A stretch of DNA of 64,000 nucleotides from OCS116 cluster bacterium AG-390-A19 (lineage in GTDB: Bacteria > Pseudomonadota > Alphaproteobacteria > MED-G09), in contig QCGV01000002.1 of NCBI GenBank assembly GCA_003278145.1, forward strand, positions 1 through 64,000, written 5' to 3'. Below the pieces are notes generated by a model. That model did no database searches, had not been told where the DNA came from, and was given only the letters and a program-made list of their open reading frames with translations. Shown piece after piece: positions 1 through 19,444 of the stretch. Within the stretch, counting starts at the first letter, position 1; every line of letters starts with the position of its first letter. A program made the translations under genes and the position numbers.

Positions 1-130
1 CAATCATATTTCGTATTATTTGACCGGGAAGAATTCCTGAAAGAGAAATCTTTTGACCAGGAGCACCTTTAAATTCAGCTTCATCAGAATTACTATCTAA
101 AAATAAGTCGGGTGATTTTTTTTTGCTCAT
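1..130 (-). CDS. Partial N-terminus, possibly dCTP deaminase (Dcd-like)
   Basis: ATG on the minus strand at 130, open to the window edge; translation MSKKKSPDLFLDSNSDEAEFKGAPGQKISLSGILPGQIIRNMI. The GILP..IR motif resembles alphaproteobacterial Dcd N-termini. Fragment only. Confidence 0.35.
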   Translation of the reverse strand, partial: MSKKKSPDLFLDSNSDEAEFKGAPGQKISLSGILPGQIIRNMI

Positions 131-239
131 AGTTTTAAATATCTCAAAGTAAAAAAATATCCAAAAGAATATATTATCTAATCTAATATAAGATCATAAG
201 TTCGTATATAATGATATTAAATAGGTATATAATAAAAAA

Positions 240-1697: not shown

Positions 1698-1698
1698 A

Positions 1699-2634
1699 TT
1701 AATTACTCTTTAAGCACCAATCAATTATGCCCTTTTGAGCATGTAATCTGTTTTCAGCCTCATCCCACACATATGAATGTGGTCCATCAATTACTTCAGA
1801 ATCAACCTCCTCACCTCGATGCGCTGGAAGGCAGTGAAGAAAAATTACTTTGTCATCAGCCAATGAAATTAATTTATTTGTAACTTGAAATTCACTCAAA
1901 ACTTTTCTTTTAGAACTATCTTCCTTGTCTCCCATTGAAAACCAAGTATCGGTTACAATACAATTAGAACCAATAGCTGCTTCTTTAGGATCGCCAATTT
2001 CTATAATCTTAGCGCCCTCATTTTTAGCTTTTTCAACAATACTTGAATTAGGTAAATAATCCCCTGGAGCACAGATCCTTAATTCAAAATCAAGCAATGA
2101 GGCAGCATGAATCCAGCTATGCGTCATATTGTTGCCGGGACCAAACCAGGTAACCACTTTACTCTCTATTGGGCCTAAAATTTCTTCAAAAGTCATCAAA
2201 TCTGCAACAACCTGACATGGGTGAGAAAGATCAGATAAACCGTTAATGACAGGCACAGATGAAGATTCAGAAAAGTCTAATATAGATGAATGCTCATTTG
2301 TTCTTAACATTACAATATCCACATATCTTGATAAAACTTTGGCAGTATCTGAAATAGTCTCTCCCCTGTTTAGTTGCATGTCATTTGAATTTACAACAAT
2401 TGATTTGCCTCCTAATTGATACATAGCTGTTTCAAAAGAAAACCTAGTTCTTGTTGATGGTTTTTCAAAAATCATGGCGAGTATTTTATCTTGTGCGCAA
2501 GCATCATCATCAATCTCCGCCTTTCCATTTCTTGTTTTAGAATTTTTTCTTTGATGACAACTATTCAGGAGATTTCTAAAGTCAGTTTTAGAAAAATAAT
2601 CTAGATCAATAAAATGTCGAATTTTTTCGGTCAT
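1699..2634 (-). CDS. argF: Ornithine carbamoyltransferase
   Basis: EKPSTRTRFSFE carbamoyl-phosphate motif, HPCQ, FLHCLPAHRGEEV. Confidence 0.95.
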   Translation of the reverse strand: MTEKIRHFIDLDYFSKTDFRNLLNSCHQRKNSKTRNGKAEIDDDACAQDKILAMIFEKPSTRTRFSFETAMYQLGGKSIVVNSNDMQLNRGETISDTAKVLSRYVDIVMLRTNEHSSILDFSESSSVPVINGLSDLSHPCQVVADLMTFEEILGPIESKVVTWFGPGNNMTHSWIHAASLLDFELRICAPGDYLPNSSIVEKAKNEGAKIIEIGDPKEAAIGSNCIVTDTWFSMGDKEDSSKRKVLSEFQVTNKLISLADDKVIFLHCLPAHRGEEVDSEVIDGPHSYVWDEAENRLHAQKGIIDWCLKSN

Positions 2635-2647
2635 GTTAAACCATATA

Positions 2648-3817
2648 CTATATATCTAAATTTGATAATGTTTCGTCGAATTTTTTTACAGCTTCCATGA
2701 CTTCATTTTCAGATATATTTAAAGGTGGTAAAAATCTGATAACATTATTAGCAGCATTTACAAGTAGTAAGCCGTTTTGAAAAGCTTGGTCAGTTATAAC
2801 AGAATTCTTTTCAATGCACTCTACACCAATCATTAGCCCCTTACCTCTAACACCAGAAATTTTATTATGATACTTCTCAACCAACTTTTCTAACTCGCTA
2901 ATAAGAATCCCTGAAAGTCTTGTTACATTGTATAAAATTTCTTCTTTTTCAATAAGTTCTATAACTTTTAGAGCAATCGAACATCCTACTGGATTACCTC
3001 CAAAAGTCGAACCATGACTTCCGTGTCGCATTCCTTTTGAGGCTTCCTCAGAAGCTAATACTGCACCAATTGGAAAACCTGCACCCAAACCTTTTGCAAG
3101 AGTAATTATATCTGGTTCAATGCCTGACCATTCATGGGAAAATAATTTACCAGTTCGACCCATCCCGCACTGAACCTGATCAAGGATCATCAAAATATTA
3201 TTCTCGTCACATAATTTTCTTATAAAGACCAAAAATTCATTTGAAACAGGATTTATTCCTCCCTCACCCTGTACAGGCTCAATTAAAATTCCAGCCGTCT
3301 TATCTGAAATAGTTTTTTTTAAGATGTTTTCATCTAGGGGTATATTCACAAAACCTTCAGGTATAGGATTAAAGCCCTCTGTATGAAGTGAATTAGAAGC
3401 AGCGGCAAGTGTTGCTAATGTCCTACCATGAAAAGAGTTCTTAAAAGTAATAATTTCATTTCTCTCAATATTACCTTTAAAAGATTGGAATTTTCTTGCT
3501 ATTTTAATAGCACCCTCAACTGCTTCTGCGCCAGAATTACAAAAGAAAATTTTTTCAGCAAAACTTAATTCACATAATTTTTTTGCTAGCAATTCTTGCT
3601 CGGGAATTGTGTACAAATTTGAAACATGCCAAATTTTATTTGCCTGCATTTCAAAGGTCTTATTAATCTCAGGATGATTATGACCAAGAATATTAACAGC
3701 AATACCTGAAGAAAAATCTAAAAATTTTTTATTATCCAAGGAAGTTAGCCATGCTCCATTTCCTTCCTTAAAAGAAACTGGATAACGATTATAAGTATTC
3801 ATTACTGAACTATTCAT
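2648..3817 (-). CDS. argD: Acetylornithine aminotransferase
   Basis: Class III aminotransferase: FCNSGAEAVEGAIKIAR, LDQVQCGMGRTGKLF, ITLAKGLGAGFPIGA; adjacent to argF. Confidence 0.93.
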   Translation of the reverse strand: MNSSVMNTYNRYPVSFKEGNGAWLTSLDNKKFLDFSSGIAVNILGHNHPEINKTFEMQANKIWHVSNLYTIPEQELLAKKLCELSFAEKIFFCNSGAEAVEGAIKIARKFQSFKGNIERNEIITFKNSFHGRTLATLAAASNSLHTEGFNPIPEGFVNIPLDENILKKTISDKTAGILIEPVQGEGGINPVSNEFLVFIRKLCDENNILMILDQVQCGMGRTGKLFSHEWSGIEPDIITLAKGLGAGFPIGAVLASEEASKGMRHGSHGSTFGGNPVGCSIALKVIELIEKEEILYNVTRLSGILISELEKLVEKYHNKISGVRGKGLMIGVECIEKNSVITDQAFQNGLLLVNAANNVIRFLPPLNISENEVMEAVKKFDETLSNLDI

Positions 3818-3871
3818 GTCATTCTCAAATTTAAAAAAAATAAATAATTTTTTCCTACTACTATCTTTTAA

Positions 3872-4687
3872 CTAAGTCTTCAACCTCCAACCTTTTTTTA
3901 ATAAAAATAAGCTTAAAACCCAAAGAAAAATATTCAGAATAAGAATAAATATGACACCAAAGAAAATAGAACTATCGGATGAACCTATAAAGCCATATCG
4001 GAAGCCATCGATTATGTAAAAAAATGGATTATAGTCTATTAATATCCTTGCAAACTCAGGCATTCTATCTACTGAATAAAATGTTCCCGATAAGAATGAT
4101 AGAGGTACAATAATAAAATTAGTTATAGTTCCTAAGTGATCAAATTTTTCCGACCAAATACCAGTGATTATACCAAGCAATGATAAAAATAAGGAACCCG
4201 CAACTGAATAGTATATTATCGCCCAGGTATGAAAAATGCTAAGCTCCACAAATAGAAAATGAATACAAGGTAAAGAAACTAGTGCAACTACAATACCCCT
4301 AGTTACACCTCCAAGTGAAATTGCAACATTCATTTCGCCTGCAGATATGGGTGGCATGAGAATATCAACTATATTCCCTTGAATTTTTGATATAAGCAAA
4401 GATGAAGATGTATGATTAAAAGCTTGCTGTAGGATTGACATCATTATTAAGCCAGGCGCTAAAAATTCAATAAATGGTACACCTTTAATATCTGGCCTCA
4501 AATTACCCAAAGCTAAAGTAAAAATTGCCATAAATAAGATAGTTGTTGCTATTGGCGCAGCTACTGTTTGTAAAAAAATTTTAAAGAATCTTTGGACTTC
4601 TTTCTTATATAAAGTCCACAGACCATACCAATTTACTCTACCGGGGTCTCTTGGTTGTATCCATTGAAATTTAGAATTATCAGACAT
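3872..4687 (-). CDS. ABC-2 type transporter permease
   Basis: 271 aa, six-TM ABC-2 pattern; PLSFLSGTFYSVDRMPEFARILIDYNPFFYIIDGFRYGF. Confidence 0.85.
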   Translation of the reverse strand: MSDNSKFQWIQPRDPGRVNWYGLWTLYKKEVQRFFKIFLQTVAAPIATTILFMAIFTLALGNLRPDIKGVPFIEFLAPGLIMMSILQQAFNHTSSSLLISKIQGNIVDILMPPISAGEMNVAISLGGVTRGIVVALVSLPCIHFLFVELSIFHTWAIIYYSVAGSLFLSLLGIITGIWSEKFDHLGTITNFIIVPLSFLSGTFYSVDRMPEFARILIDYNPFFYIIDGFRYGFIGSSDSSIFFGVIFILILNIFLWVLSLFLLKKGWRLKT

Positions 4688-4828
4688 GAGCTTATTCTGA
4701 ACAATAATGACAATAAATAAAGTTATTTCTTAAAAATATGCAATTTTTTTATCTTTTTTAACAACTACATCTTGTATACGATGAAAAAATGTATACCATA
4801 TATTTTATATTTGATGGGAGAAGATAAA

Positions 4829-5332
4829 ATGGCATGGACTGATGACAGGGTAGAAATTCTTACAAAATTATGGGGTGAAGGTCTTAGTGCAAGTCAAATA
4901 GCAAGAGAATTAGGTGATGTAACTAGAAACGCCGTAATTGGTAAAGTGCATAGACTGGGCCTAGCTGGAAGAGCTAGTCCAACAAGACCTAAAAGTAGGG
5001 TAAGACACAGAGAACCTTCAAATTTTTCTTCAAATTTTTCTTCAAAAGATAGATATAATGAAAATTTAAAGCCACTTTCTCTGCCCGAGCCTGCTGTTAA
5101 CTCAGATGGGAAACCAATTAATATTTTAATGTTAACAGAAAAAATTTGTAAGTGGCCAATTGGTGAGCCATCAGATGAAAATTTTAGGTTTTGTGGATTA
5201 AATAGAGTTCAAGGTTCTGTTTATTGTGAAGAACATACGAAAGTTGCTTATCAACCGCTTGAAACTAGAAGAAAAAAGAAAGTTAAATTTTCTGCAAAAA
5301 GAAATACTAAGACTAATGTAGGTAATTACTAA
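4829..5332 (+). CDS. gcrA: GcrA cell-cycle regulator
   Basis: MAWTDDRVEILTKLWGEGLSASQIARELGDVTRNAVIGKVHRLGLAGR is the GcrA N-terminal signature; ATG at 4829 preferred over the TTG at 4772 used in the ORF track. Confidence 0.93.
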   Translation: MAWTDDRVEILTKLWGEGLSASQIARELGDVTRNAVIGKVHRLGLAGRASPTRPKSRVRHREPSNFSSNFSSKDRYNENLKPLSLPEPAVNSDGKPINILMLTEKICKWPIGEPSDENFRFCGLNRVQGSVYCEEHTKVAYQPLETRRKKKVKFSAKRNTKTNVGNY

Positions 5333-6033
5333 AAGTTTTGTTCAAGTGAATAACCGGCGGACCTAACAGTTCTAATAGGGTCTTTTTTTCCTTCAATTGA
5401 AAGAGCTTTTCTTAACCTTCCTATATGAACATCCACAGTTCTTATTTCAACATTAATATTATCCACACCCCATACATTGTCTAATAGCTTTTCTCTACTA
5501 AAAACCATATTTGGATGCTCAATTAAACAATTTAGTAATCTAAATTCTGTTGGACCTAAGCTTAAAGAAATACCATCCCTTAAAACACGGTACTCATCTC
5601 TGTTAATTGTAATATCACCAACCTTAATAATATTTTGCCCCTTAGACAAATTTGATCTTCTTAAAACAGCTTGAATCCTGGCTAACAATTCAGGAAATGA
5701 AAATGGTTTGGTTATATAATCATCAGCACCAGTCTCCAAGCCCCTTATTTTGTCACCTTCTTCACCCATAGCAGTAATCATAATGATTGGAACATTATTA
5801 TATTTTTTTTGGGTTCTTAATCGGCGACATAATTCTATTCCTGAGATATTGGGCAACATCCAATCTAATAAAATTAAGTCTGGGTTAAAACTTTGGCACT
5901 CTGATAGAACAAGTTCACCATCTTTAACTATATTTGTTTGATAGCCATCCTTAATGAGATTATAATCAATCAACATTGCTAAACTTTCTTCATCTTCAGC
6001 TATCAAAATTTTATAATTTTTTTTAGTGTTCAT
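5329..6033 (-). CDS. phoB: Phosphate regulon response regulator PhoB
   Basis: REC domain (LLDWMLPNISGIELCRRLR) plus OmpR-type wHTH (TVDVHIGRLRKAL); next to phoU. Confidence 0.93.
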   Translation of the reverse strand: MNTKKNYKILIAEDEESLAMLIDYNLIKDGYQTNIVKDGELVLSECQSFNPDLILLDWMLPNISGIELCRRLRTQKKYNNVPIIMITAMGEEGDKIRGLETGADDYITKPFSFPELLARIQAVLRRSNLSKGQNIIKVGDITINRDEYRVLRDGISLSLGPTEFRLLNCLIEHPNMVFSREKLLDNVWGVDNINVEIRTVDVHIGRLRKALSIEGKKDPIRTVRSAGYSLEQNF

Positions 6034-6056
6034 CTTTTATTTCTTTTATAATAAAT

Positions 6057-6761
6057 CTAAAAAACCGTCTCATCTTCAACTTTCATTTTTCTATCATCTC
6101 CCAGTTTCTCTCCAGTAACTATAAAGTGAGCGACTTCAGCAATATTTGTTGCTTGATCACCAATTCTTTCTAAATATCGGGCAATGAAAAAAAGTGGTAC
6201 AAGGGCTTCAATTGCCTCTGGCTTTTCTTTAATATCGTTCAGGATAGCAGTCAAAATATTTGCATATGATGAGTCAATTTTTATATCAGACCTCCAAACA
6301 TCTAATGCATGGTCTGCTTTACCTTGAGCATAATCCTCTAAAACAAGATCTAAACTTTGTTGAACATCTTTTGTTAAATTTACAAGTGCGTCTATAGTAT
6401 TGGGCGATTTAGCATTCAATAGATCACCTTTTATGATACGCTTACAGACTCCTTTGCACATATCTCCAATTCTTTCCAAATAAAGAGAAACTTTTACTGC
6501 TGAAAAAACCAGCCTTAAGTCATTGGCCATTGGTTGTCTTTTAGCTAATATATTAAAAGTTAGATCCTCTAAAGAAACTTGCAGAGCATTTATTTGTTTA
6601 TCCGCTTCAATTGTCTGTTTAGCAAGATTATGGTCATTCATTCTCAGAGATTGCTCAACATTCCTCAATGCTAACTGAGCTAAACCTCCTAAACTTACAA
6701 GACCATCTGTTAAATCTTTTAATTCCTCATCAAATGAAGTTACTATATGCTGATCATCCAT
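6057..6761 (-). CDS. phoU: Phosphate transport system regulator PhoU
   Basis: Two PhoU repeats (LERIGDMCKGVCKR..., LERIGDQATNIAEVAHF). Confidence 0.94.
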   Translation of the reverse strand: MDDQHIVTSFDEELKDLTDGLVSLGGLAQLALRNVEQSLRMNDHNLAKQTIEADKQINALQVSLEDLTFNILAKRQPMANDLRLVFSAVKVSLYLERIGDMCKGVCKRIIKGDLLNAKSPNTIDALVNLTKDVQQSLDLVLEDYAQGKADHALDVWRSDIKIDSSYANILTAILNDIKEKPEAIEALVPLFFIARYLERIGDQATNIAEVAHFIVTGEKLGDDRKMKVEDETVF

Positions 6762-6769
6762 TTTTACCT

Positions 6770-7564
6770 CTAACCATACCTTCCTGTTACATAAGCTTCT
6801 GTTTGTTCGTGATCTGGACTTCTAAAAATTTTTTCTGTATCACCAACCTCAATTAATTTTCCTAAATGAAAAAAAGCAGTTCTTTGAGATACTCTTGCTG
6901 CTTGTTGCATAGAGTGTGTTACAATAGTAATTGTAAAATTATCTTTTAATTCGTCAATTAATTCTTCAATCTTTGCAGTAGCAATTGGGTCTAAAGCAGA
7001 ACATGGTTCATCCATTAAGATTATTGATGGATCAATAGCGATAGCTCTTGCAATACATAGGCGCTGTTGTTGGCCACCAGATAAACTAGTTCCTGGTTCT
7101 GAAAGTCTATCTTTAACTTCAGACCAAAGACCTGCTCTTTCTAAACTCTTTTCCACTTTCTCATCAAGATCATCTTTATGCAATATTCTACCATGAAGTT
7201 TAGGGCCATAAGCAACATTATCATAAACAGACTTTGGAAAAGGATTTGGCTTTTGAAAGACCATTCCTATTCTTGACCTTAACTCAACAACATCAATATC
7301 TGGATGGTATATATCTTCATTACTGATTTTAATGGAACCTTCTACTCTACATATATCGATAACATCATTCATCCTATTAATGCATCTCAAAAAAGTTGAT
7401 TTTCCACACCCTGATGGACCAATCAAAGAAGTAACCTCTTTTTCACCAATATTAAGATTGATACCAAATAAAGCCTGTTGATTTGCATAAAAAACGTCCA
7501 CATTTTTGCATTCAATTAAAGCCTTATTTTCAATTATATTATTATTTTCTAATTCTTTATCCAT
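6770..7564 (-). CDS. pstB: Phosphate ABC transporter ATP-binding protein PstB
   Basis: [46 protein letters not shown]. Confidence 0.96.
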
Positions 7565-7571
7565 AATTAAA

Positions 7572-8807
7572 TCACCATTTAACTTCGTAACGTTTCCTCA
7601 ATAATACTGCAGCAAGATTTATTAATATAAGAAGGCTTATAAGGATTAAAGTGGCAGCACTAGTTTTTGCAACAAATGCTCTTTCTGGGCTATCAGCCCA
7701 TATATATATTTGAACTGGAAGAGCAGTTGCGGGATCTGTAAATGTAGCGGGTATGTCGACAATAAAAGCAACCATTCCGATTAATAATAATGGTGCAGAT
7801 TCGCCAAAAGCCCTAGCTAAACCAATAATTGTTCCAGTGAAAATTCCAGGCATAGCCGAAGGGAGTAGATGTTGAAATACCACCTGCATCTCTGATGCTC
7901 CCATTGCCAGGGCGGCTTCTCTAATAGAAGGGGGAACAGATTGAAGCGATGATCTTGTAGCTATAATTATTGTTGGTAGAGTCATTAAAGATAACACAAG
8001 ACCCCCAACTAAAGGAACAGACCTAGGCATCCCAAAAAAGTTTATAAAAACGGCTAAACCTAATAAACCAAAAATTATTGACGGCACTGCTGCAAGATTA
8101 TTTATATTAACCTCAATAAAATCAGTTATACGATTTTTTACAGCAAAGTTTTCTAAATATATGGCGGTTAAAACTCCTATAGGGAAACTTAATAATAATG
8201 TAACAGTTATGGTAATTAAAGAGCCAATTGTAGCCCCCCAAAATCCTGCAACTTCTGGCTCTCTACTATCACCATTTAAAAATAAATTTCTAGATATTTT
8301 ATTTTTTACACGACCGGTTCCATCTAATTGATTTAACCAAGTAATTTCTTTATTATCCAATCTTCTTTCATCTTCTGGAAGAGATATATCAACGTAGCCT
8401 TTATAAAAAAGATCAGAATCATCAGTGAATAAAACATTAAAATAAAATTTCTTACCTATATATGAAGGATTCTCTCTAACAAAATCTCTAAGAGTATAGG
8501 TTGCGCTTGAAGAAATTAACTTGAATAATTTTCTTTTATCAGAACGACTCTGAACCTCAGGAAAAAAGGAAAAAAGAGAAGATCTTAGGATGCCTCTATA
8601 ATTAATATCATCTATTCCATCCTCTAAAGAAATTTCAGTCATATTTATTTCAAGGTCAATTGTATAATTTGTATAGGCTGGGATTGATCTATAAATCATA
8701 GAGCCAATTATTATGGCAAGCATTGTTGCAGCTGCAATTAATGAGAAAAATCCATATGCCTTAAAACGACTTTCTGCCTTGTGTCTTTTTGAAAAATTTT
8801 TATTCAT
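7572..8807 (-). CDS. pstA: Phosphate ABC transporter permease PstA
   Basis: BPD permease signature [30 protein letters not shown]; likely ATG at 8807 ([13 protein letters not shown]), overlapping the pstC stop; ORF track starts at 8831. Confidence 0.92.
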
Positions 8808-10155
8808 ATCGCTCTCTATATCTTCGAACAATTATCATAGCAAATACGTTGAGAGCTAGTGTGATCACAAATAACATCAATCCTAATGCAAAAGCTGCTA
8901 GGGTTTTAGCGCTATCAAATTCTTGGTCTCCGACCAAAAGAGTAACAATCTGAACAGTTACTGTTGTTACAGCAGAGAGTGGATTTGCTGTTAGATTTGC
9001 AGCCAAACCTGCAGCCATTACAACTATCATTGTTTCTCCAATTGCTCTTGAAATAGCTAAAAGAAGGGCACTAACTATTCCTGGCAACGCTGCAGGAATT
9101 ATGACTTTTTTAACTGTCTCAGCTTGCGTTGCGCCCAATGCAAGTGATCCATCCCGCAGGGATAAAGGTACAGCCGTCATAACATCATCAGATAATGATG
9201 AAACATAAGGAATAATCATTATACCCATTACCAAACCAGCAGCTAATGCTGATTCTGTTGCAACTGTTAAACCGATATATTCTCCGCAAGATCTTACAAA
9301 TGGCCCTACTGTTAAAGCAGCAAAAAATCCATAAACAACTGTCGGAATACCAGCTAATATTTCTAATATAGGTTTTAAGAAATCTCTAGTTTTTGGTTTA
9401 GCATATTGAGATAAGAAAATAGCTGAATATAAACCTAGTGGAGCTGCAATAGACATCGCTACGGCAGTAATTAAGAGTGTTCCAGTAAATAATGGAATGG
9501 CCCCAAAACTTCCTGATGATCCAACCTGATCTTCTCTGATGGCAGTTTGAGGTGACCAGTGTGTACCAAAGACAAAATCAAAGAAACCCACCTGGGAAAA
9601 AAATCTTAAAGTTTCAAAGATTAAAGAAAGGATAATTCCTATGGTTGTTAAAACAGCTATTGTTGAAAAAATAAAAAATATAAATTTCAAAATGCTTTCT
9701 ACTCTTCTTCTTGCATCAAATCGAACTGATAATTTTCTATACGATACAAAACTTAAAACAATTGATAATACAATTACAAAGATAAAAGAAATCAATCTTG
9801 AATTTTGGTATTTCTCAATTAATGAATTTGAATCAGCCTCAGAAATAAAACCGCTATTAATAAGATTATTTAAATTTGAAATATTATTAATTAAAAAATT
9901 TTTAACATACATTATTTCTTCAGATCCAAGGCTTATTGTTTCCTCGGAAAGATAAGGGGTGACAAGATAATTTAAATAATTGGCCTTAAAAGTGAGAAAT
10001 AGAATAATAAGGAAAAATGGAATTAAAAAAGCCCATAATGATACATAAAGCCCGTGATAAACTGGCATTGATCTTAAGGGTTCGTTATTTTGAAGGTAAA
10101 GTAACGCTCTTTGTTTAGCAATTGTGAAGGATAGTAATCCTAAGACAATTATCAA
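8800..10155 (-). CDS. pstC: Phosphate ABC transporter permease PstC
   Basis: BPD permease signature RDGSLALGATQAETVKKVIIPAALPGIVSALLLAISRAIGETM; start appears to be TTG at 10155, with no in-frame ATG/GTG upstream before a stop. Confidence 0.92.
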   Translation of the reverse strand: MIIVLGLLSFTIAKQRALLYLQNNEPLRSMPVYHGLYVSLWAFLIPFFLIILFLTFKANYLNYLVTPYLSEETISLGSEEIMYVKNFLINNISNLNNLINSGFISEADSNSLIEKYQNSRLISFIFVIVLSIVLSFVSYRKLSVRFDARRRVESILKFIFFIFSTIAVLTTIGIILSLIFETLRFFSQVGFFDFVFGTHWSPQTAIREDQVGSSGSFGAIPLFTGTLLITAVAMSIAAPLGLYSAIFLSQYAKPKTRDFLKPILEILAGIPTVVYGFFAALTVGPFVRSCGEYIGLTVATESALAAGLVMGIMIIPYVSSLSDDVMTAVPLSLRDGSLALGATQAETVKKVIIPAALPGIVSALLLAISRAIGETMIVVMAAGLAANLTANPLSAVTTVTVQIVTLLVGDQEFDSAKTLAAFALGLMLFVITLALNVFAMIIVRRYRERYE

Positions 10156-10228
10156 AGTTAAACTTATTAAAAGATCGGTATTGATAACTATCCTCCACCA
10201 TTGAATAGACTAAATTACTTTATCTTTG

Positions 10229-11290
10229 TTAAAGCTCCAATTCAATTAAATTTTTACCAGCTTTTTTATACTTTTTATATTCATCAGATGGTAATGGAAT
10301 TAGACCTTTTTCTACTAAATATCCATCAGGACCCATAGCACTTTTGCTAGTAAATTCTTTAACGAAATCATTAATAGAAGGTTTCATTCTTATATGATTC
10401 TTTTTTACATAAAAGAATAAAGATCTTGATATAGGGTATTCTCCTACAAGAATATTATCAAAAGTTGGTTCTGCACCATTAACAACAGAGCCTTGAACCT
10501 TATCAGCATTTTGGTCAAGAAAACTAAAGCCAAATATACCTATAGCATCTGGATTTTGATCAAGCTTTTGAATAATAAGATTATCATTCTCACCTGCTTC
10601 AATAAAGGCTCCATCTTCACGAATAGTACGAGCAATTTTCTTGAATTCTTTTTTTCCAGCTTTAGAGCTTCCTCTTAATTCCTTTAAAGCAGGAAAGGTT
10701 TTTGCTCCAGCATCCATTGCTAATTCAACAAAAGCATCTCTTGTACCTGATGTAGGAGGAGGACCAAGGACTTCTATTTTAACATTAGGAAGGCTTGGGT
10801 TAACATCGTTCCATGTTTCATAAGGATTTTCTTGTAATTCAGATCCATCGGCATTTGCAGGAACTTTTTCTGCAAGTGCCAAGTATATGTCACGAGTAGT
10901 GAGTTCAACAACATCTGCTTTCTTTGAATTTGCTAAAACAATACCATCGTAACCAACTTTGATCTCAACAATTTTAATACCAGCTTTAGAGCAATTCTTG
11001 AACTCTTTACTTTTGATACGTCTAGAAGCATTGGTAATGTCAGGATGCTGTTCACCATTGCCAGCACAAAAGAGTTTCATGCCGCCACCTGAACCAGTTG
11101 ACTCAACGATAGGTGTTTTATATTTTGTTTTCCTACCAAATTCTTCTGCAACGGCAGTAGAAAAAGGGAATACCGTTGATGAACCAACAATTTTAATTTG
11201 TTCCTCAGCATTTACTGAAATGCCTGGGATTAAAACAATTGAAAGAGCAACGATAAATGATTTAAATGTATTTCTCATTTTTTTCTCCAA
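10229..11290 (-). CDS. pstS: Phosphate-binding periplasmic protein PstS
   Basis: Signal peptide; EQIKIVGSSTVFPFSTAVAEEF, ESTGSGGGMKLFCAG, PPTSGTRDAFVELAM. Confidence 0.94.
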   Translation of the reverse strand: MEKKMRNTFKSFIVALSIVLIPGISVNAEEQIKIVGSSTVFPFSTAVAEEFGRKTKYKTPIVESTGSGGGMKLFCAGNGEQHPDITNASRRIKSKEFKNCSKAGIKIVEIKVGYDGIVLANSKKADVVELTTRDIYLALAEKVPANADGSELQENPYETWNDVNPSLPNVKIEVLGPPPTSGTRDAFVELAMDAGAKTFPALKELRGSSKAGKKEFKKIARTIREDGAFIEAGENDNLIIQKLDQNPDAIGIFGFSFLDQNADKVQGSVVNGAEPTFDNILVGEYPISRSLFFYVKKNHIRMKPSINDFVKEFTSKSAMGPDGYLVEKGLIPLPSDEYKKYKKAGKNLIELEL

Positions 11291-11301: not shown

Positions 11302-12255
11302 TTAAAACATGTCAAAGCTGAATTTGTATTGAATACCAGCCATAATATGTTCTGATTCTTTAGAAGAGTCTGCAAAGGATTTGTCGACATAATTAAGATA
11401 TAATTTTAATGGTTTAGCAACTTTATAATCAAAACCAATACCTGTAAGCTCACCTCCAGCTTTAACCATATCTGATTCACCATACATGACTTTAAAGGCA
11501 GCTTTTTTTGACATTTTCATTTTTAAAGAAACTACATACCCATCGTCATCATATTTTCCTGTAGTGTCTTCAGATTCTTGCCAAATAAAACCAAGTGTTA
11601 CAGGTTTACCAAGAGGAATTGTTCCAGCGAATCTTGTTGTATCAAAGAAGTAACCCTTTTGAGGAACCTCTGAGTCAAAAGCTAAAGCAAAAAATGCTTT
11701 ATTACCGGCAATTTTACCTTTCCACTCAGCTGAAACAGAAAAACCTTCTTCATCTGCTTTTTCCATTATGGCCATCACATTAACAGTAAAACCATTAGCT
11801 TTTGGAGAAGACCACTGAATAACCTTTTTACTTCTATTTTCGCCCCAGATAATATTTTTTATATCACCTGCTGTATCATTGAATAAATCAACTTTACCTT
11901 GAGCTTTTTTCGTTGGTGTGTCGTGCATACCCATAAATACTTTACCAAAAGCACCTTTAAGGCCTACATAACTGTTTCTTTGTTTAAAGGTTGGATCACC
12001 ATCAATTGGATCTGTTTGATATTCATATTTATAAATAGCTGCAAGACCATTATCAAAAGTTTGTGAACCTTTTACACCCACGCGTGAAGCATGGGATTTT
12101 ACATCAGTGTAAGAACCACTTGAGGTATCTTCACTGCTTAAAGCAATATCTAAACGCCCATAAATTGATGATTTTGCAATTGCTTCAGTTGAATTTATTA
12201 CAAGACCAAAAAAAAGTGCGAAAAGAATTATTTTAATAGAATTTAACTTAGTCAT
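11302..12255 (-). CDS. Gram-negative porin, first gene of the pst operon
   Basis: Signal peptide; SSIYGRLDIALSSEDTSSGSYTDVKSHASRVGVKGSQTFDNGLAAIYKYEYQ; YVGLKGAFGKVFMGMHDTP; C-terminal aromatic (F). Confidence 0.88.
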   Translation of the reverse strand: MTKLNSIKIILFALFFGLVINSTEAIAKSSIYGRLDIALSSEDTSSGSYTDVKSHASRVGVKGSQTFDNGLAAIYKYEYQTDPIDGDPTFKQRNSYVGLKGAFGKVFMGMHDTPTKKAQGKVDLFNDTAGDIKNIIWGENRSKKVIQWSSPKANGFTVNVMAIMEKADEEGFSVSAEWKGKIAGNKAFFALAFDSEVPQKGYFFDTTRFAGTIPLGKPVTLGFIWQESEDTTGKYDDDGYVVSLKMKMSKKAAFKVMYGESDMVKAGGELTGIGFDYKVAKPLKLYLNYVDKSFADSSKESEHIMAGIQYKFSFDMF

Positions 12256-12325: not shown

Positions 12326-12343
12326 ATGACAGTTTTATGAAAT
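12326..12343 (-). promoter_or_regulatory. Putative Pho box upstream of porin-pstSCAB-phoU-phoB
   Basis: Minus strand: ATTTCAT-AAAA-CTGTCAT, two 7-mers 11 bp apart, one matching CTGTCAT exactly; about 71 bp upstream of the porin ATG. Confidence 0.7.
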
Positions 12344-12364: not shown

Positions 12365-13681
12365 TTATATTTTGTTAAAAATGATAGAAAAAGATGAACC
12401 AACACCCAACTTACTTTCAATTTCTAATTGAGCTTTGTGACGAGAAACAATATTTTTTACTATAGATAATCCAAGACCAGTACCTGTATTTCTAATGTCT
12501 GAATTTACTCTATAAAATCTCTCAGTAAGCCTGGATATGTGGTCTTCATGAATACCAGGCCCGTCATCTTTGACTTCAAAAATAATTTTAAAGTCATTTT
12601 CAAAAATCTTAATATTAACACTTTGACCAGTGTTATTATATTTTACTGCATTTTCTATTAAATTTACAAATGCTATCCTAATATCATTTTCATCGCCATG
12701 TATTAAATATTCCTTCTTTTCAAGTTCTTTTGAAAGTTTGATTTTATTTTTTTTGGCCAATTCATTTAATCCATCAAAAACATTATCAAGTACTTTCATC
12801 AAGTTAACTTCATTTTCAGGCAAAATATGTTGGCGCATTTCCGCTTGATTTAGGGATAACAAATCTTCAATTAAAAGTTGAGCTCTATTTGATTGATCAA
12901 TTAGTTTTTTTAAAAAATCTTTAGAAGCCTCTTTATCTTCATCTCCATATTTTTCAAGGGTTTCAGCGATTCCCTTTATTACGCTAATTGGAGTTTTTAA
13001 TTCATGACTTGCATTGGCGATAAATTCACTACGTAATGTCAATATTTTTTTTACTTCTGTAGTTTCTCTAAACATTAATAAATAATTAAATTCATCTTTT
13101 GAGAAATTAGGCACTCTTGAAATATCAACCTCATAAGATCTATCTATTTCACCTGGTAAAATAATTTCTATTTTTTCAATACTATTTTTTTGACTATTTT
13201 TATAGAGATTTAAAGTTTCTAATAATAGAGTTGACCTAATAATAGTTTGAATTCTTAGTCCTGTTGGAATTTCATTTTCAGAATTTAAAACAGAGTCTCT
13301 TGCAATTGATGAAAAAAAAGTCTTATCAGCACTTTGATTAAAAATTAATATAACATCATTTTCATTAATCAAAATTGTAGGTTCTTTAATAGCTTCAATA
13401 ATTGTTTTAAGTTTATTAAGGCCTTCACTAATATCCTTAAATTTTGACTCTTCTTGATTTTTATAAAATTCGAGTGCCTTCCTATCGTCACTTGACATTG
13501 CTAATAAAACTACTGTGAAAATCACGATAAAGAAAATTGCTGTAAAAAAAGTCAAGAAACCCAACAAGAAAAAAGCAAAACAGAGAACTATTAATAAAAA
13601 AATAATCGGAATTTTAGGGCGAATTATTTCACTCAAAACAGATCCTATTTTATAATCTGTAGTTTCAATTTTTTTATTCAT
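12365..13681 (-). CDS. phoR: Phosphate regulon sensor histidine kinase PhoR
   Basis: SHELKTPISVIKG H-box, N-box NLIENAVKYN, GTGLGLSIVKNIV; N-terminal TM hairpin; upstream of the pst operon. Confidence 0.9.
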   Translation of the reverse strand: MNKKIETTDYKIGSVLSEIIRPKIPIIFLLIVLCFAFFLLGFLTFFTAIFFIVIFTVVLLAMSSDDRKALEFYKNQEESKFKDISEGLNKLKTIIEAIKEPTILINENDVILIFNQSADKTFFSSIARDSVLNSENEIPTGLRIQTIIRSTLLLETLNLYKNSQKNSIEKIEIILPGEIDRSYEVDISRVPNFSKDEFNYLLMFRETTEVKKILTLRSEFIANASHELKTPISVIKGIAETLEKYGDEDKEASKDFLKKLIDQSNRAQLLIEDLLSLNQAEMRQHILPENEVNLMKVLDNVFDGLNELAKKNKIKLSKELEKKEYLIHGDENDIRIAFVNLIENAVKYNNTGQSVNIKIFENDFKIIFEVKDDGPGIHEDHISRLTERFYRVNSDIRNTGTGLGLSIVKNIVSRHKAQLEIESKLGVGSSFSIIFNKI

Positions 13682-13786
13682 GGTTGATTATAAGAATAAA
13701 AAGAAAAGTAAATCAATATTGTATGTATAAATATTATATATGAGATTATTAATACAAATGAATTTTATAGTGATAAAATAAGAAGA

Positions 13787-14284
13787 ATGAAAAAAACGCT
13801 AATATTGTGGAGACATGCTCAAGCAGAGATTGGTAACGATGATTTTAATCGTGCTATCGATGAAAGGGGAATAAAAGAATCTAAAATAATGTCGAAATTT
13901 CTTTTATCCAATGCATCTCCTGACCTTATCTTATCTTCCCCTGCTCGCAGAGCTCAAGAAACATTGGAATCATTTAGCGATCTATTCCCTCTAAAAAAAA
14001 ATAATATAGATAAAAATCTATATCTCGCAGAACCTGAAAAGATTGTACAATCAATAATTGAAAATGCAGATAAAGAAGATACGATTTTAATCGTTGGTCA
14101 TAATCCAGGTATTCATGAATTATCACTATTACTAACAAACAATAATCCAGATTTAATGGTTGAATTTTCTACATGTTCTATGAGTTTTATTTCTTTTAAT
14201 AATGATAATTGGTATGATTTTGATACAAAAAAATGTCTTTTAGAGAGATTTATCCGACCAAAAGATTTAAAAACTAATTATTAA
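13787..14284 (+). CDS. SixA-type phosphohistidine phosphatase / histidine phosphatase family
   Basis: MKKTLILWRHAQAE (RHG motif), SSPARRAQET, VGHNPGIHELSLLL. Confidence 0.88.
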   Translation: MKKTLILWRHAQAEIGNDDFNRAIDERGIKESKIMSKFLLSNASPDLILSSPARRAQETLESFSDLFPLKKNNIDKNLYLAEPEKIVQSIIENADKEDTILIVGHNPGIHELSLLLTNNNPDLMVEFSTCSMSFISFNNDNWYDFDTKKCLLERFIRPKDLKTNY

Positions 14285-14645
14285 AGTGAAGAATAATACT
14301 AGCAAAAGACATTACTGAAATTAATAGAAAAGTTCCTTGAGCACCAATTAATCTTGGATAATTCGCACCTTCATTTTTACTCATACCCCATGCATGAAGA
14401 AGTCTAAATAAAACAAGAAGGATACCAAAAATATGTATTAAGTTATTAGATGAAGAAGAATATTCAAAAATAAAAAGTATAATTAAAGCCAAAGGAACAT
14501 TTTCTACAAAGTTTGCCTGCACTCTCTCCGTGGCATTAGACCTCCATTTCTCTTCTTTACCACCCCTTAAACGAACATAAAGAACTTGATTAGCAAGTAA
14601 TACCGATAGAAGACCTAAAATAGCTGCATAAAGAAGAGTTATCAT
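14274..14645 (-). CDS. MAPEG family membrane protein
   Basis: ERVQANFVENVPLALIILF pattern, four TM segments. Confidence 0.8.
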   Translation of the reverse strand: MITLLYAAILGLLSVLLANQVLYVRLRGGKEEKWRSNATERVQANFVENVPLALIILFIFEYSSSSNNLIHIFGILLVLFRLLHAWGMSKNEGANYPRLIGAQGTFLLISVMSFASIILHFNN

Positions 14646-14869
14646 ATCAAACCTCTAATCAGAGAAAGAATTCCTATTACAATAATTATTAAACCTATCC
14701 AAGAATATTGATCTAGCCAAAAAAGCATAAAGGATCGTTGACTATCTACTTCACCATTTTCTGGTTTAGTTTTCTTTAATTGTCTTGGTAATCCAGCAAC
14801 CCAAAAAATTTGCAACCCATGCCACAAAAAGCCTAGACCAAATGCTAAAATAAAATTTGAAATTTCCAT
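14642..14869 (-). CDS. Small membrane protein of unknown function
   Basis: 75 aa with two TM segments; 4-bp overlap with the MAPEG gene. Confidence 0.6.
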   Translation of the reverse strand: MEISNFILAFGLGFLWHGLQIFWVAGLPRQLKKTKPENGEVDSQRSFMLFWLDQYSWIGLIIIVIGILSLIRGLI

Positions 14870-14908
14870 AATTAATAATGCAACATTTATTAATCTTTTT
14901 AAACTATT

Positions 14909-15961
14909 TTAATTAAATTTAGATGAGATTAGTGGAAGATCTAAAAAAGACTTAAATCCTGGACTTGCTTCACAAACTAGGGGTATTGCATGAATACCGT
15001 GCAAGGCAGTTGATACCAATGGATCATCATTCCAGTCATGTGAAAAATCAATTTTCATATTTGGCTTTCCTTTTACTTCAACACACATCCCAACTGGCTC
15101 TTCCCACTCAGGAGCTGCATCAGGGTGTGCTCTCCAAATTGTTTCTTGTATGATTTTAGTTCCATCTTCACAATTACCTGTCCACTTTCTTCTTTGACCG
15201 GAAATTTTTCCTTTTTCAACTACACCAGCAGCAATTTTATAATCTTTTTCAGCAGTAATTAAGTCTATACTTTCATCTACGTTAATAATTTTTGATCCTA
15301 TACCATCAGCAATTAAATATATCGCTTCTTTAAAAAGACCGCCCAACCAATTTTCATATCGACCAGCTTCTTGATTATATTGATCAAGAGATTTTCCCAT
15401 TAACATTGTATCAAAAACAATTTCCTCAGAAGGATAGTATGAAAATTCAGAACTCTCTGTTACAACTACCTCATTTACCTCCTCGGACATTCCACTCATA
15501 GTTAAAGGCATTAAATCAGAGAGCCAACCGGGAGCAATACCAGTACCATGAAGGCTTACACCCCCCTCAATACAAGCATCCTCTATTTCATTTGCAAAAT
15601 CTTCTCCAAAAGCCTTAGGATATAAAAAACCAACAGTGGTTACGACATTAAAACCGTTTTTTAAAAGCATAATTATATTTTTTTTATCTAAATCAGGATC
15701 TTCACCCAATCTTAGGGAGGCAAGCGGAGTATAATTTACACAATCAGCTTCAGTAGATAAGACTTTCTCAATATCAGTAGAGGCTTCAACACCTATTGGA
15801 TCAATCCCAGCAATAGTTCCAGCATCTAATCCATTTTTATTTTTGTCTGAGACTATAAGTCCAACAAGATCAAGATCACTCCTATTTTTAATACCCCTAA
15901 TAGAAGCTTTACCAACATTACCAGAAGACCATTGTATAACCTTGTATATTTTTTTAGGCAT
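14909..15961 (-). CDS. Dihydrodipicolinate reductase-like NAD(P)-binding protein
   Basis: KVIQWSSGNVGKASIRGIKNRSDLDLVGLIV Rossmann start; matches the DapB-N-like / amine dehydrogenase-like family pattern. Confidence 0.75.
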   Translation of the reverse strand: MPKKIYKVIQWSSGNVGKASIRGIKNRSDLDLVGLIVSDKNKNGLDAGTIAGIDPIGVEASTDIEKVLSTEADCVNYTPLASLRLGEDPDLDKKNIIMLLKNGFNVVTTVGFLYPKAFGEDFANEIEDACIEGGVSLHGTGIAPGWLSDLMPLTMSGMSEEVNEVVVTESSEFSYYPSEEIVFDTMLMGKSLDQYNQEAGRYENWLGGLFKEAIYLIADGIGSKIINVDESIDLITAEKDYKIAAGVVEKGKISGQRRKWTGNCEDGTKIIQETIWRAHPDAAPEWEEPVGMCVEVKGKPNMKIDFSHDWNDDPLVSTALHGIHAIPLVCEASPGFKSFLDLPLISSKFN

Positions 15962-16045
15962 TTATTACTCCCATAACTTTATATAAATTACTTAATATTA
16001 GAACTTATTTAACGATAAATAAAATTAAATTGATTATAAAGAAAT

Positions 16046-16076
16046 GGCCGCTGTAAAATTCTATCTCACAGCGGCC
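16046..16076. terminator. Strong hairpin between ppx and the DapB-like gene
   Basis: GGCCGCTGT (16046-16054) and ACAGCGGCC (16068-16076), perfect 9-bp inverted repeat, 13-nt loop; weak T-tract on either side. Confidence 0.5.
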
Positions 16077-16159
16077 TAACAATAAACTGGGGAGGTTAAT
16101 TGTTTGTACAACAATCTAAGGGTTAAATATGACAATTTAATAAATAAAATATTAACTTT

Positions 16160-17032
16160 TTATTTTTTCTTAACTAAAGAATAAGCAATACCCTCAACTA
16201 AACCCCAAGGTATTACTGATATTTTTTTTATATTAAGTTCATTGGCAATATTAGAATAAATCATTCCAGATTTTGAAATTAACTTCGCTCTATCTGGTCT
16301 AATATTATATTTTTTTATAATTTCACTTTTAGTCAGTCCATTTATTTTTTTTAAAATCAAATCAAATTCTTTTAGGGGAAGAGATTTTTCTTTTTTAACT
16401 TTAAATAGGCTTCTAATACCACCGCCGGTTCCAATTATTTGTGAAATATCATTACCTTTAAACTTATTTAACCAATCAACAATATTAGACCATTCTTTTG
16501 AAAAACCTTTTTTCCCTAAGTAGTGAATTGATAATGCTCCAACAGGAAATGATTTTGAGTCAATACATTCATTTTTTTTCTTTAACAGAACTTCTGTGCT
16601 TCCACCGCCAACGTCAACAATAAAATAATTCATATCTGGATTAAATTGACTTATATCCAAGTTTGAAATTAATTTTACTTCCTCAACACCATCAATAATT
16701 TCAATTGGAATACTTGAATAATCTGAAAGTTGATCAAGAATCAATTCTTGATTTGAAGCTTGTCTGAATGCTGCAGTAGCACATGCTCTAACATAATCAA
16801 CATCGTAAAGGTTAATAGTCTTCTCAAACTTTTTCAGAATTTTTCCAAGTCGCCTTATTGATTTCTGTCTAATCTTTTTATGTTTTTTTGAATATATATC
16901 CCTTCCAAGACCAAGGGCGTAACGCATTCTTAAATGAGAAATTTCATTTAAATTATTACTTTTATTATCATATTCAAACATTCTATGTTTGACAGAGTTT
17001 GTTCCGATATCTATTGCAGAAATTTTTTTCAA
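16160..17032 (-). CDS. ppx: Ppx/GppA family exopolyphosphatase
   Basis: MKKISAIDIGTNSVKHRMFEY, VDVGGGSTEVLL, IIGTGGGIRSLF. Confidence 0.85.
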   Translation of the reverse strand: MKKISAIDIGTNSVKHRMFEYDNKSNNLNEISHLRMRYALGLGRDIYSKKHKKIRQKSIRRLGKILKKFEKTINLYDVDYVRACATAAFRQASNQELILDQLSDYSSIPIEIIDGVEEVKLISNLDISQFNPDMNYFIVDVGGGSTEVLLKKKNECIDSKSFPVGALSIHYLGKKGFSKEWSNIVDWLNKFKGNDISQIIGTGGGIRSLFKVKKEKSLPLKEFDLILKKINGLTKSEIIKKYNIRPDRAKLISKSGMIYSNIANELNIKKISVIPWGLVEGIAYSLVKKK

Positions 17033-17033
17033 T

Positions 17034-17897
17034 TTAACCTAAATTTTCAGATAAAATTTTATATTGATTATATGTAAGACCATCAAAGACCTCACCTTGA
17101 TAACTATAAGAATAACTTTTAATTTCTTTACTCCATTTTTTAGGCTTTAGAACTTTTTTATTTTTATACTCAGTAGAATTTAAAAGATAATGCATTGCCG
17201 TGATTCTTGCTAACCTTTTATTTGATGAGTCAATAACAATCCAAGGACAAATTTTTGTTGAAGTTTGTTTAAACATTTGTTCTTTATAAAGAGTTAAAAC
17301 GTCAAATTTATCAATTATCATTTTATCAATATGAGAAAATTTCCAGTGTTTTATTGGACTGTTTTTTCTAGCATTAAGTCTATTTCTTTGGATAGTCTTA
17401 TCTATAGAAAGATAAAATTTTATTATTTCTGTTCCATTGTTTATATATTCCAATTCCCAATCATTTACATTTTTCATAAAATTTTTATATTGACGCTGAG
17501 TACAAAAACCCAAAGCGGGCTCTATTAAAGCTCGATTATACCAGGACCTATCAAAAAAAATCATTTCGCCATTTTTAGGCATCAATTTTTCATACCTTTT
17601 AAACCAGTGCTTTGATTCCCACTCTGTTGGAATACCAAGATTTATATACTTAACTTGTTCAGGAATTAAATATTTAGAAAACTGTTTTGCAGTATCTGTT
17701 TTACCTGCAGAATCTCTTCCTTCGAAGATAACTGCAACTTTTCTATTCTCTTTTATCACAGATTTTTGAAATTTTATTAACTCAACACGTAATCTAAATT
17801 TCTCCTTTTGATATTGTTTTTGAGTTAACTTTTCATAGCCTTGAAGATTAAATGTTCGTTCACCAATAACTTGGTTATTAACTTTGCTATTTTTCAT
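17034..17897 (-). CDS. ppk2: Polyphosphate kinase 2 family protein
   Basis: VIFEGRDSAGKTDTAKQFSKYL Walker A; MIFFDRSWYNRALIEPALGFC Walker B/lid region. Confidence 0.9.
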   Translation of the reverse strand: MKNSKVNNQVIGERTFNLQGYEKLTQKQYQKEKFRLRVELIKFQKSVIKENRKVAVIFEGRDSAGKTDTAKQFSKYLIPEQVKYINLGIPTEWESKHWFKRYEKLMPKNGEMIFFDRSWYNRALIEPALGFCTQRQYKNFMKNVNDWELEYINNGTEIIKFYLSIDKTIQRNRLNARKNSPIKHWKFSHIDKMIIDKFDVLTLYKEQMFKQTSTKICPWIVIDSSNKRLARITAMHYLLNSTEYKNKKVLKPKKWSKEIKSYSYSYQGEVFDGLTYNQYKILSENLG

Positions 17898-18543
17898 TAA
17901 AAAATCTCATTACTACCATAGCTGAAATTCCCCCCAGAAACTGAGCTGTAACAAAATAAAGCACCGAATTTGGCGAAATTCCTGTAAAGTTCTCAGTGAA
18001 AACTCTTGCAATAGTTACCGCAGGGTTAGCAAGGGACGTTGAAGATGTAAACCAATAAGCCGAAGTAATATAAAGCCCTACAGCGATACCAGTGTTAAAT
18101 TTATTTTTTTTAGTCGATAAAATAAAAATTATTAAAATTAATCCAAAAGTTGCAATGATCTCACTCAAAAATAAGTTAAAGCCAAGACGGTCAACTGAGG
18201 AAACACTAATATATTTATTTTTAAACATTATATTAGCAATTATAGTTCCAAAAAATCCTCCTATAATTTGCGAAATCCATAAGAAAAGCATTTCAATAAA
18301 ACTTATTGATTTTTTTAAAAAGAAACAAAATGATACAACAGGGTTAAAATGGGAGTCAGATAATTCATTAAAAACATTGATTAAGACAACTAAAATAGCG
18401 CCTGTAGCTATTGTATTAGCAAGTAACATTCCTCCTAAAGATTCAGAGTATAAATTCTGAGCCATAAAACCTGAACCAACAACAGTGCATACTAAAAAAA
18501 AAGTTCCTAAAAATTCCGAAAAATATTTGCTTAAATTATTCAT
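17887..18543 (-). CDS. MIP-family aquaporin / aquaglyceroporin
   Basis: FLGTFFLVCTVVGSG; HFNPVVSF (first NPA box is NPV) and LANPAVTIAR (second NPA); next to arsC. Confidence 0.88.
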   Translation of the reverse strand: MNNLSKYFSEFLGTFFLVCTVVGSGFMAQNLYSESLGGMLLANTIATGAILVVLINVFNELSDSHFNPVVSFCFFLKKSISFIEMLFLWISQIIGGFFGTIIANIMFKNKYISVSSVDRLGFNLFLSEIIATFGLILIIFILSTKKNKFNTGIAVGLYITSAYWFTSSTSLANPAVTIARVFTENFTGISPNSVLYFVTAQFLGGISAMVVMRFFNEK

Positions 18544-19087
18544 TATTATTGACTGCCTCCAAGAAAAGATTTGAAATCAAATCAATCCTATTTTCCCTTT
18601 TCTTAAATTTTTCTAATTGTGAATTCTTTATTTTAAAAGCTTCAAATTCAGATGATTTTAAATAATCTTTAATGTAATTAAATCTAAGGCTAAGTATGAC
18701 AAATAAATCTGAAAAACCTTTCATTGATAGTGAATGAGAATCTTTATGAATTGATGGATCTTCAAGATCCCATTTTATTTTTGGTATATCCTCCAACCAG
18801 ATTGGACAAGGTTCACTTCCAGCATTTGAGCATAAAGTTACAATAATTTCTGGTTTCCAGGAATTTGTTTTAGAAAATTCATTCCATGATTTACTCTCAA
18901 GATTACTTGTACACACTGACATTTTTTCAAGAGTTAAAAGACAATAAGGGTTTATTTCGCCTATTGGATTACTGCCAGCAGATTTAAATTGAATATAGTC
19001 AAACAAATAATTATTGCCAATTGCCTCAGCCATTATAGATCTTGCTGAATTTCCTGTGCATAACATAAGAGCTCTAATTGGTTTCAT
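18536..19087 (-). CDS. arsC: Arsenate reductase, LMW-PTP (thioredoxin-coupled) family
   Basis: LMLCTGNSARSIMAEA P-loop; VTLCSNAGSEPCPIW second Cys pair; WDLEDPS. Confidence 0.9.
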   Translation of the reverse strand: MKPIRALMLCTGNSARSIMAEAIGNNYLFDYIQFKSAGSNPIGEINPYCLLTLEKMSVCTSNLESKSWNEFSKTNSWKPEIIVTLCSNAGSEPCPIWLEDIPKIKWDLEDPSIHKDSHSLSMKGFSDLFVILSLRFNYIKDYLKSSEFEAFKIKNSQLEKFKKRENRIDLISNLFLEAVNNNE

Positions 19088-19152
19088 TTATTTTCTCTTT
19101 ATAGATTAAAAGATAAGATTTTATAATTTTCTTATTTTTATATTTGAAAAAT

Positions 19153-19170
19153 ATTACAGAATTATTACAA
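19153..19170 (-). promoter_or_regulatory. Putative Pho box upstream of arsC-aqp-ppk2-ppx
   Basis: Minus strand: TTGTAAT-AATT-CTGTAAT, two 7-mers 11 bp apart; about 66 bp upstream of the arsC ATG. Confidence 0.55.
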
Positions 19171-19195
19171 ATAACTATTCGAAAAGGTTGTTCAA

Positions 19196-19444
19196 ATGAA
19201 GCTATCGATAGAAATTACAATGTACCCTTTAGAGGATAAATACCTTCCTATTATAGAAAATTTTATTGAGCATTTAAAAAGCTACAATGATATTAAGCTA
19301 GAAGTTTTTCCAACCAGCACAGTTATCTATGGTGATTTTGATAATGTTATGGAAGTTTTATCGAGTTCAATAAAATGGAACGTTAACAATAAAAATAAAG
19401 CTGTTTTCGTTACAAAATTTTTACCTAATTATGAAGCAATCTAA
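19196..19444 (+). CDS. YkoF-like thiamine/HMP-binding-type small protein
   Basis: MKLSIEITMYPLEDKYLPIIENFIEHLKSY... STVIYGDFDNVMEVL, pattern of YKOF-like domains. Confidence 0.6.
   Translation: MKLSIEITMYPLEDKYLPIIENFIEHLKSYNDIKLEVFPTSTVIYGDFDNVMEVLSSSIKWNVNNKNKAVFVTKFLPNYEAI

Follow-up and report, generated by a model that had tools for sequence, protein, structure and literature searches.

The toxicity of arsenate is governed by the arsenate/phosphate ratio, and a coupling of arsenic to phosphorus is already known in outline from the arsC gene of SAR11 and from the PhoB-controlled aioBA genes. The ars operon of Sinorhizobium is of the ArsR-regulated kind. It pairs ArsC with the aquaglyceroporin AqpS, which releases arsenite (as cited in passages of PMC6426599). 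Passages of the same study describe in SAR11 a module of LMWPc_ArsC and an aquaporin, the frequency of which rises as phosphate falls (PMC6426599). In Halomonas HAL1, a PhoB-bound Pho box, TTGACACTCCATTGTTAT, controls the arsenite oxidase genes aioBA (PMC4563254). Arsenic islands often contain pst genes (PMC3834237), and ArsR1 of Agrobacterium represses the nearby phoB1/pstS1 (PMC7965956).

The locus analyzed here lies in a stretch of 64,000 nucleotides (the window) from contig QCGV01000002.1 of OCS116 cluster bacterium AG-390-A19. With the proteobacterial Pho regulon it shares two 7-mers with a 4-bp spacer and a -10 downstream, PhoBR, phoU and pst encoded in the same window, and the same box type at pst; unlike that regulon, the operon joins an arsenate reductase and a channel with ppk2 and ppx. 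The pair of ArsC and aquaglyceroporin is also that of the Sinorhizobium ars operon, which is ArsR-regulated, whereas no HTH_5-type ArsR was detected in the window genome. The gene pair, its order and the setting in alphaproteobacteria of the low-phosphate ocean are those of the SAR11 module, but the passages on that module mention neither PhoB nor pst, and the window operon adds ppk2-ppx and a recognizable Pho box (PMC6426599). As in Halomonas HAL1, a Pho box stands over an arsenic gene, bound by PhoB there and only predicted to be so before the window arsC; aioBA differs in serving arsenite oxidation instead of arsenate reduction, in belonging to a gammaproteobacterium and in having its box on the antisense strand. 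In the open literature searched, outside which most subscription journals lie, we found no described Pho regulon composed of arsC, a channel, ppk2 and ppx, no report of a Pho box before an alphaproteobacterial arsC, and none of an arsC operon with ppk2-ppx.

The arsC operon, its promoter and the neighboring pst cluster

The operon and its control elements comprise the following features:

19153-19170, minus strand: Pho box of arsC, TTGTAATAATTCTGTAAT (TTGTAAT-AATT-CTGTAAT)
19164-19170 and 19153-19159, minus strand: its half-sites TTGTAAT and CTGTAAT, with the spacer AATT
19137-19142, minus strand: -10-like TATAAA, exactly 10 bp past the Pho box
18536-19087, minus strand: arsC, arsenate reductase of the low-molecular-weight phosphatase fold, 183 aa
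17887-18543, minus strand: aqp, major intrinsic protein, aquaglyceroporin-like channel, overlapping the end of arsC
17034-17897, minus strand: ppk2, polyphosphate kinase 2, overlapping the end of aqp
16160-17032, minus strand: ppx, exopolyphosphatase, short Ppx/GppA form, abutting ppk2
16046-16076, minus strand: intrinsic terminator 3' of ppx, 14-bp stem, -23.1 kcal/mol, z = -5.6

The operon arsC-aqp-ppk2-ppx, as proposed in the initial annotation, holds: the reading frames overlap or abut, a second genus has them in identical order, and ppx is followed by a strong terminator. The P-loop of ArsC is of the CX5R type (CTGNSARS, with Cys10). In an alignment with pI258 ArsC, Cys10, Cys86 and Cys94 fall on the redox triad of that enzyme (Cys86/Cys94 corresponding to C82/C89), i.e., the redox cysteines of the thioredoxin type are present. 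Since its score of 60.8 bits lies under the NCBIfam arsC_pI258_fam cut-off (174.3), the protein appears to be a distant member of the superfamily and is named ArsC-like, in line with the LMWPc_ArsC of SAR11. PPK2 contains the PF03976 domain (218 bits) and reaches 265.4 against TIGR03707 (cut-off 301.8); its Walker motifs A (GRDSAGK) and B (FDRSW) align with those of 5llb. Solved relatives of the operon proteins are thioredoxin-type ArsC with the cysteine triad, class I-like PPK2, NIP/aquaporins and Ppx.

The operon might be Pho-controlled and yet not concerned with arsenic, in which case an LMWP-like phosphatase would belong to a unit for phosphate storage or recycling with an osmotic channel. 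Two of the four genes are indeed polyphosphate genes, ArsC falls below the NCBIfam cut-offs for ArsC and the substrate of the MIP is not readable from sequence. However, the three redox cysteines align, arsC and aqp recur as a pair (43 of the 84 alphaproteobacterial loci sampled, see below) and the corresponding SAR11 pair is associated with arsenate resistance in passages of the published study (PMC6426599); we regard a non-arsenic function as unlikely. The arsenate rationale of the initial annotation, according to which high-affinity phosphate uptake can let in arsenate, fits the SAR11 work (PMC6426599). The search for HTH_5 (Pfam) yielded no ArsR in the genome (83% complete) and matches in 14 of 14 control genomes; by this search, the ArsR repressor over arsC that marks a classical ars operon is missing.

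In PhoB-dependent promoters, the Pho box stands in for the -35, upstream of the -10. The same layout is found before arsC, where two tandem CTGTMAY-like 7-mers with an 11-bp period and a 4-bp spacer lie in sense orientation, with the -10 directly downstream. Among the pairs listed by a promoter scan, no sigma-70-like -35/-10 pair uses TATAAA, and the box probably replaces the -35. The ATG of arsC (at 19087) is separated from the box by 65 bp.

The box sits in a 108-bp divergent intergenic region, with a small thiamine-binding-like gene at 19196 opposite, and could for this reason be assigned to that gene or to DAPDH instead of arsC. Its orientation and the -10 face arsC, however; it is kept in two genomes of another genus (G010 and G014) in which LysR takes the upstream place of the small gene, the small gene persists in G008 without a box, and in the deletion genomes described below a terminator lies between box and DAPDH. 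An assignment to either of these genes is thus extremely improbable. The neighboring LysR was considered separately as main controller and rejected, because it stays when the operon is absent.

The predicted regulator of the arsC box is encoded in the same window:

12365-13681, minus strand: phoR, sensor kinase, just upstream of the porin gene
12326-12343, minus strand: Pho box ATTTCATAAAACTGTCAT, which precedes the first gene of the porin-pst-pho operon by 70 bp
11302-12255, minus strand: porin gene, opening the pst operon, with pstS second
6770-11290, minus strand: pstS, pstC, pstA and pstB
6057-6761, minus strand: phoU
5329-6033, minus strand: phoB, scoring over the NCBIfam equivalog cut-off for PhoB; its product is the predicted regulator of the two boxes

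On the minus strand the gene order is porin-pstS-pstC-pstA-pstB-phoU-phoB (12255 down to 5329), and the arsC operon (19087 down to 16160) lies about 4 kb beyond phoR. The cognate PhoB expected for a member of the Pho regulon is present. Sequence, strand, 7-mer spacing and position of the arsC element were all confirmed as initially annotated (distance to the ATG claimed as about 66 bp), and so was the pst element of the same geometry (claimed at about 71 bp).

The porin that opens the Pho-controlled pst operon is a family-wide partner of pstS and a candidate phosphate-starvation porin. Conservation of PhoR in relatives is low (39-58% in G010, G003 and G008) compared with the adjacent porin (at least 80%) or pstS.

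The arsC box in window, genome and another genus

In a window with 67% A+T, the similarity of the two 7-mers to a Pho box might be accidental. Judged by the strict E. coli consensus CTGTCAT-N4-CTGTCAT alone, which is poorly discriminating in this AT-rich genome, the arsC site is unremarkable and at chance level, since it has three mismatches and the window holds 7 such sites vs 5.2 expected; sites with two mismatches are many genome-wide. Because the strict consensus lets the arsC site blend in, a matrix was learned from the arsC boxes of other families and the pst boxes of the family, the arsC site of the own family being left out. Over the approximately 128,000 positions of the window, the pst box ranked first with 19.8 bits and the arsC box second with 15.6, followed by a third site with 12.6, and a second, hand-made PhoB matrix built from general knowledge placed the arsC box first and the pst box second.

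Genome-wide (1.37 Mb assembly, 83% complete), the pattern YTGTMAT-N4-YTGTMAT, which was picked after the site had been seen, has a single exact match, the arsC site. The more degenerate HTKTMAY-N4-YTGTMAY, which fits both the pst and the arsC box, has 8 matches vs 2 for the reversed control; only these two boxes are intergenic before a gene, and the other six matches lie within coding sequence (accA, purU, recR, ftsK, rne and prfA, named by inspection). A profile search of the own genome with model R1, in which 150 of 370 candidates were scored, found the pst site; the arsC site was not among the matches listed. By the window matrices and the degenerate pattern, equally good promoter-located sites are not numerous.

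The two genomes of the other genus (G010 and G014) carry these four genes in unchanged order and at the same place near phoR-porin-pst, with ArsC proteins 53-55% identical to that of the window. Upstream of arsC they have TTGTAAT-ATTT-CTGTAAT, in which both half-sites are identical to those of the window. With the box as anchor of the alignment, the stretch that begins with the first half-site and ends with the -10 (TATATT in G010, 10 bp downstream of the box) is identical at 30 of 36 positions, and the flanks on both sides are random; conservation of the box in these orthologs thus goes beyond flanking similarity. The site is kept upstream of arsC orthologs and, as a class, in Alphaproteobacteria (see below). 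The exact half-sites amid random flanks largely refute an accidental origin, the top rank of the box in the window and the class-wide excess specific to the 4-bp spacer also argue against it, and we consider it very improbable.

A genome of another species of the same genus (G002) was not counted as a further independent case of conservation, since a tract of it is nearly identical to the window. The near-identity extends over no less than 1-6692 and 12747-19269, with roughly one mismatch in every 1-6 kb; from 19270 onward the two are about 10% divergent. The break, on the upstream side of the arsC Pho box and 100 bp from it, may reflect either a recombination event of recent date or a chimeric joining of single-cell assemblies.

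Distribution of box and operon in the family and in Alphaproteobacteria

Orthologous phoB (65-100% identical) is present in 10 of the 18 family genomes, the other eight having only PhoB paralogs of 37-40% identity, which are also found in the phoB-bearing genomes. The arsC operon occurs in 5/10 genomes with phoB vs 0/8 without it (p = 0.03 when phylogeny is ignored, the association reflecting few independent events); one of the five (G007) was counted from a ppx end at a contig edge, its arsC being off-contig. Likewise, the pst box is found in 6/6 loci with phoR between sixA and porin (scores 12.7-14.6) and in 0/6 phoR-less loci (best score 6.6).

Members of the OmpR family other than PhoB bind tandem repeats of similar period, three further PhoB relatives (38-40% identical to PhoB) scored in the genome, and one of these response regulators might read the arsC box. 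These paralogs are, however, also present in the PhoB-less genomes, which have neither pst box nor arsC operon; moreover, the arsC box is of the pst-box type, and elsewhere arsC lies inside or beside pst-pho clusters. Reading of the box by a regulator other than PhoB is improbable.

In six family genomes (L075, L076, L077, L080, L081, and L082), the porin-pst operon is kept, and phoR at the locus, the orthologous phoB and the pst Pho box are gone together.

In two relatives, loss of the operon corresponds to one segment of the window:

16160-19139: segment between 8-bp direct repeats, TTATTTTT, with copies at 16160-16167 and 19132-19139

Two phoB-bearing genomes, G001 (L078) and G005 (L073), are missing one repeat copy and the 2,964 bp between the copies, i.e., 2,972 bp. 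At the deletion site, between DAPDH and the thiamine-binding-like gene, the four operon genes are gone exactly, and an orphan Pho box, the -10 and the terminator are retained; in G008 the box is lost as well. This exact joint loss in G001 and G005 indicates that the operon acts as one block. What lies between DAPDH and LysR varies: a metallo-beta-lactamase-fold lipoprotein (G003/G004) or an amidohydrolase-like gene (G011, by inspection) is found in place of the arsC operon (L071 7902-8879, L075 10432-11492, and L076 6768-8653).

The class-wide comparison was based on 386 alphaproteobacterial genomes, 149 of them with an ArsC relative, from which 80 arsC neighborhoods plus four more gave 84 loci. 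A Pho box, defined as a sense-strand pair with a 4-bp spacer and a score of at least 10 within 200 bp upstream, precedes 18 of the 82 arsC loci outside the family vs 2.2% (about 15/670) of the control ORF starts within the neighborhoods sampled (Fisher 2e-10). Counted by family, 12/48 families have a box with spacer 4, whereas fifteen other spacers give 2.3 families on average and never more than 7, and no comparable peak was seen for opposite-strand or inverted arrangements in the same arsC upstream regions. Boxes are found in 13/41 loci with aqp following arsC vs 5/41 without. Since 64/82 sampled arsC genes score under the threshold, Pho wiring of arsC is common, not universal.

In one family (f31; L033, L110, and L112), arsC directly follows phoB in the pst operon, which is complete in L033 as phoR-pstSCAB-phoU-phoB-arsC with a convergent aqp; in f93, arsC-aqp adjoins phoR, phoB and phoU, and f103 and f127 provide single cases of an arsC-Pho neighborhood. 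No Pho linkage was scored from tblastn matches to phoB or phoR that lack pst/phoU neighbors, nor from lone pstB matches in f55/f59. From these sequences it seems rather probable that in many alphaproteobacterial lineages the core Pho regulon includes arsC, in most cases accompanied by an aquaglyceroporin gene, with phosphate starvation instead of arsenic as inducer, and that this marine family added ppk2 and ppx, the block being gained and lost as one.

A proposed feed-forward arsenic defense under phosphate starvation

The arsC element is very likely a PhoB site in the promoter of arsC-aqp-ppk2-ppx, through which starvation would serve as a feed-forward signal of arsenate risk. Pho control of the operon, as it was initially annotated, is supported by the rank of the box, its footprint and the class-wide excess. 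From the box and its conservation, the operon structure, the terminator, the co-occurrence with phoB and the undetected HTH_5-type ArsR, all read from sequence, we infer binding and activation by PhoB, the substrate specificities and the role of polyphosphate as follows, the enzymatic roles being those of the protein families. When phosphate is scarce, PhoR would phosphorylate PhoB, and PhoB-P would bind the tandem 7-mers and recruit RNA polymerase to a promoter with a -10 and without a -35; porin-pstSCAB-phoUB would be switched on simultaneously. Pst would then bring in arsenate together with phosphate. ArsC would reduce arsenate to arsenite, the aquaglyceroporin would release the arsenite, and polyphosphate turnover by PPK2 and PPX might buffer the phosphate and nucleotide pools. 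Phosphate starvation would thereby act as a feed-forward signal of arsenate risk that substitutes for an arsenic sensor, and since no HTH_5-type ArsR was found in the genome, it may be the sole cue for the operon.

An arsenate defense tied to phosphate scarcity would dispense with an arsenic sensor, in keeping with the streamlined genomes of the ocean, and within one transcript it would link polyphosphate turnover to arsenate exposure. Such Pho wiring would account, at the level of regulation, for the published finding that arsC frequency in SAR11 is inversely related to phosphate, and by the same logic arsC transcripts in ocean metatranscriptomes are expected to be markers of phosphate stress. 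This marine bacterium appears to arm its arsenic defense when phosphate scarcity makes poisoning likeliest, by a wiring that appears to be frequent in related alphaproteobacteria.
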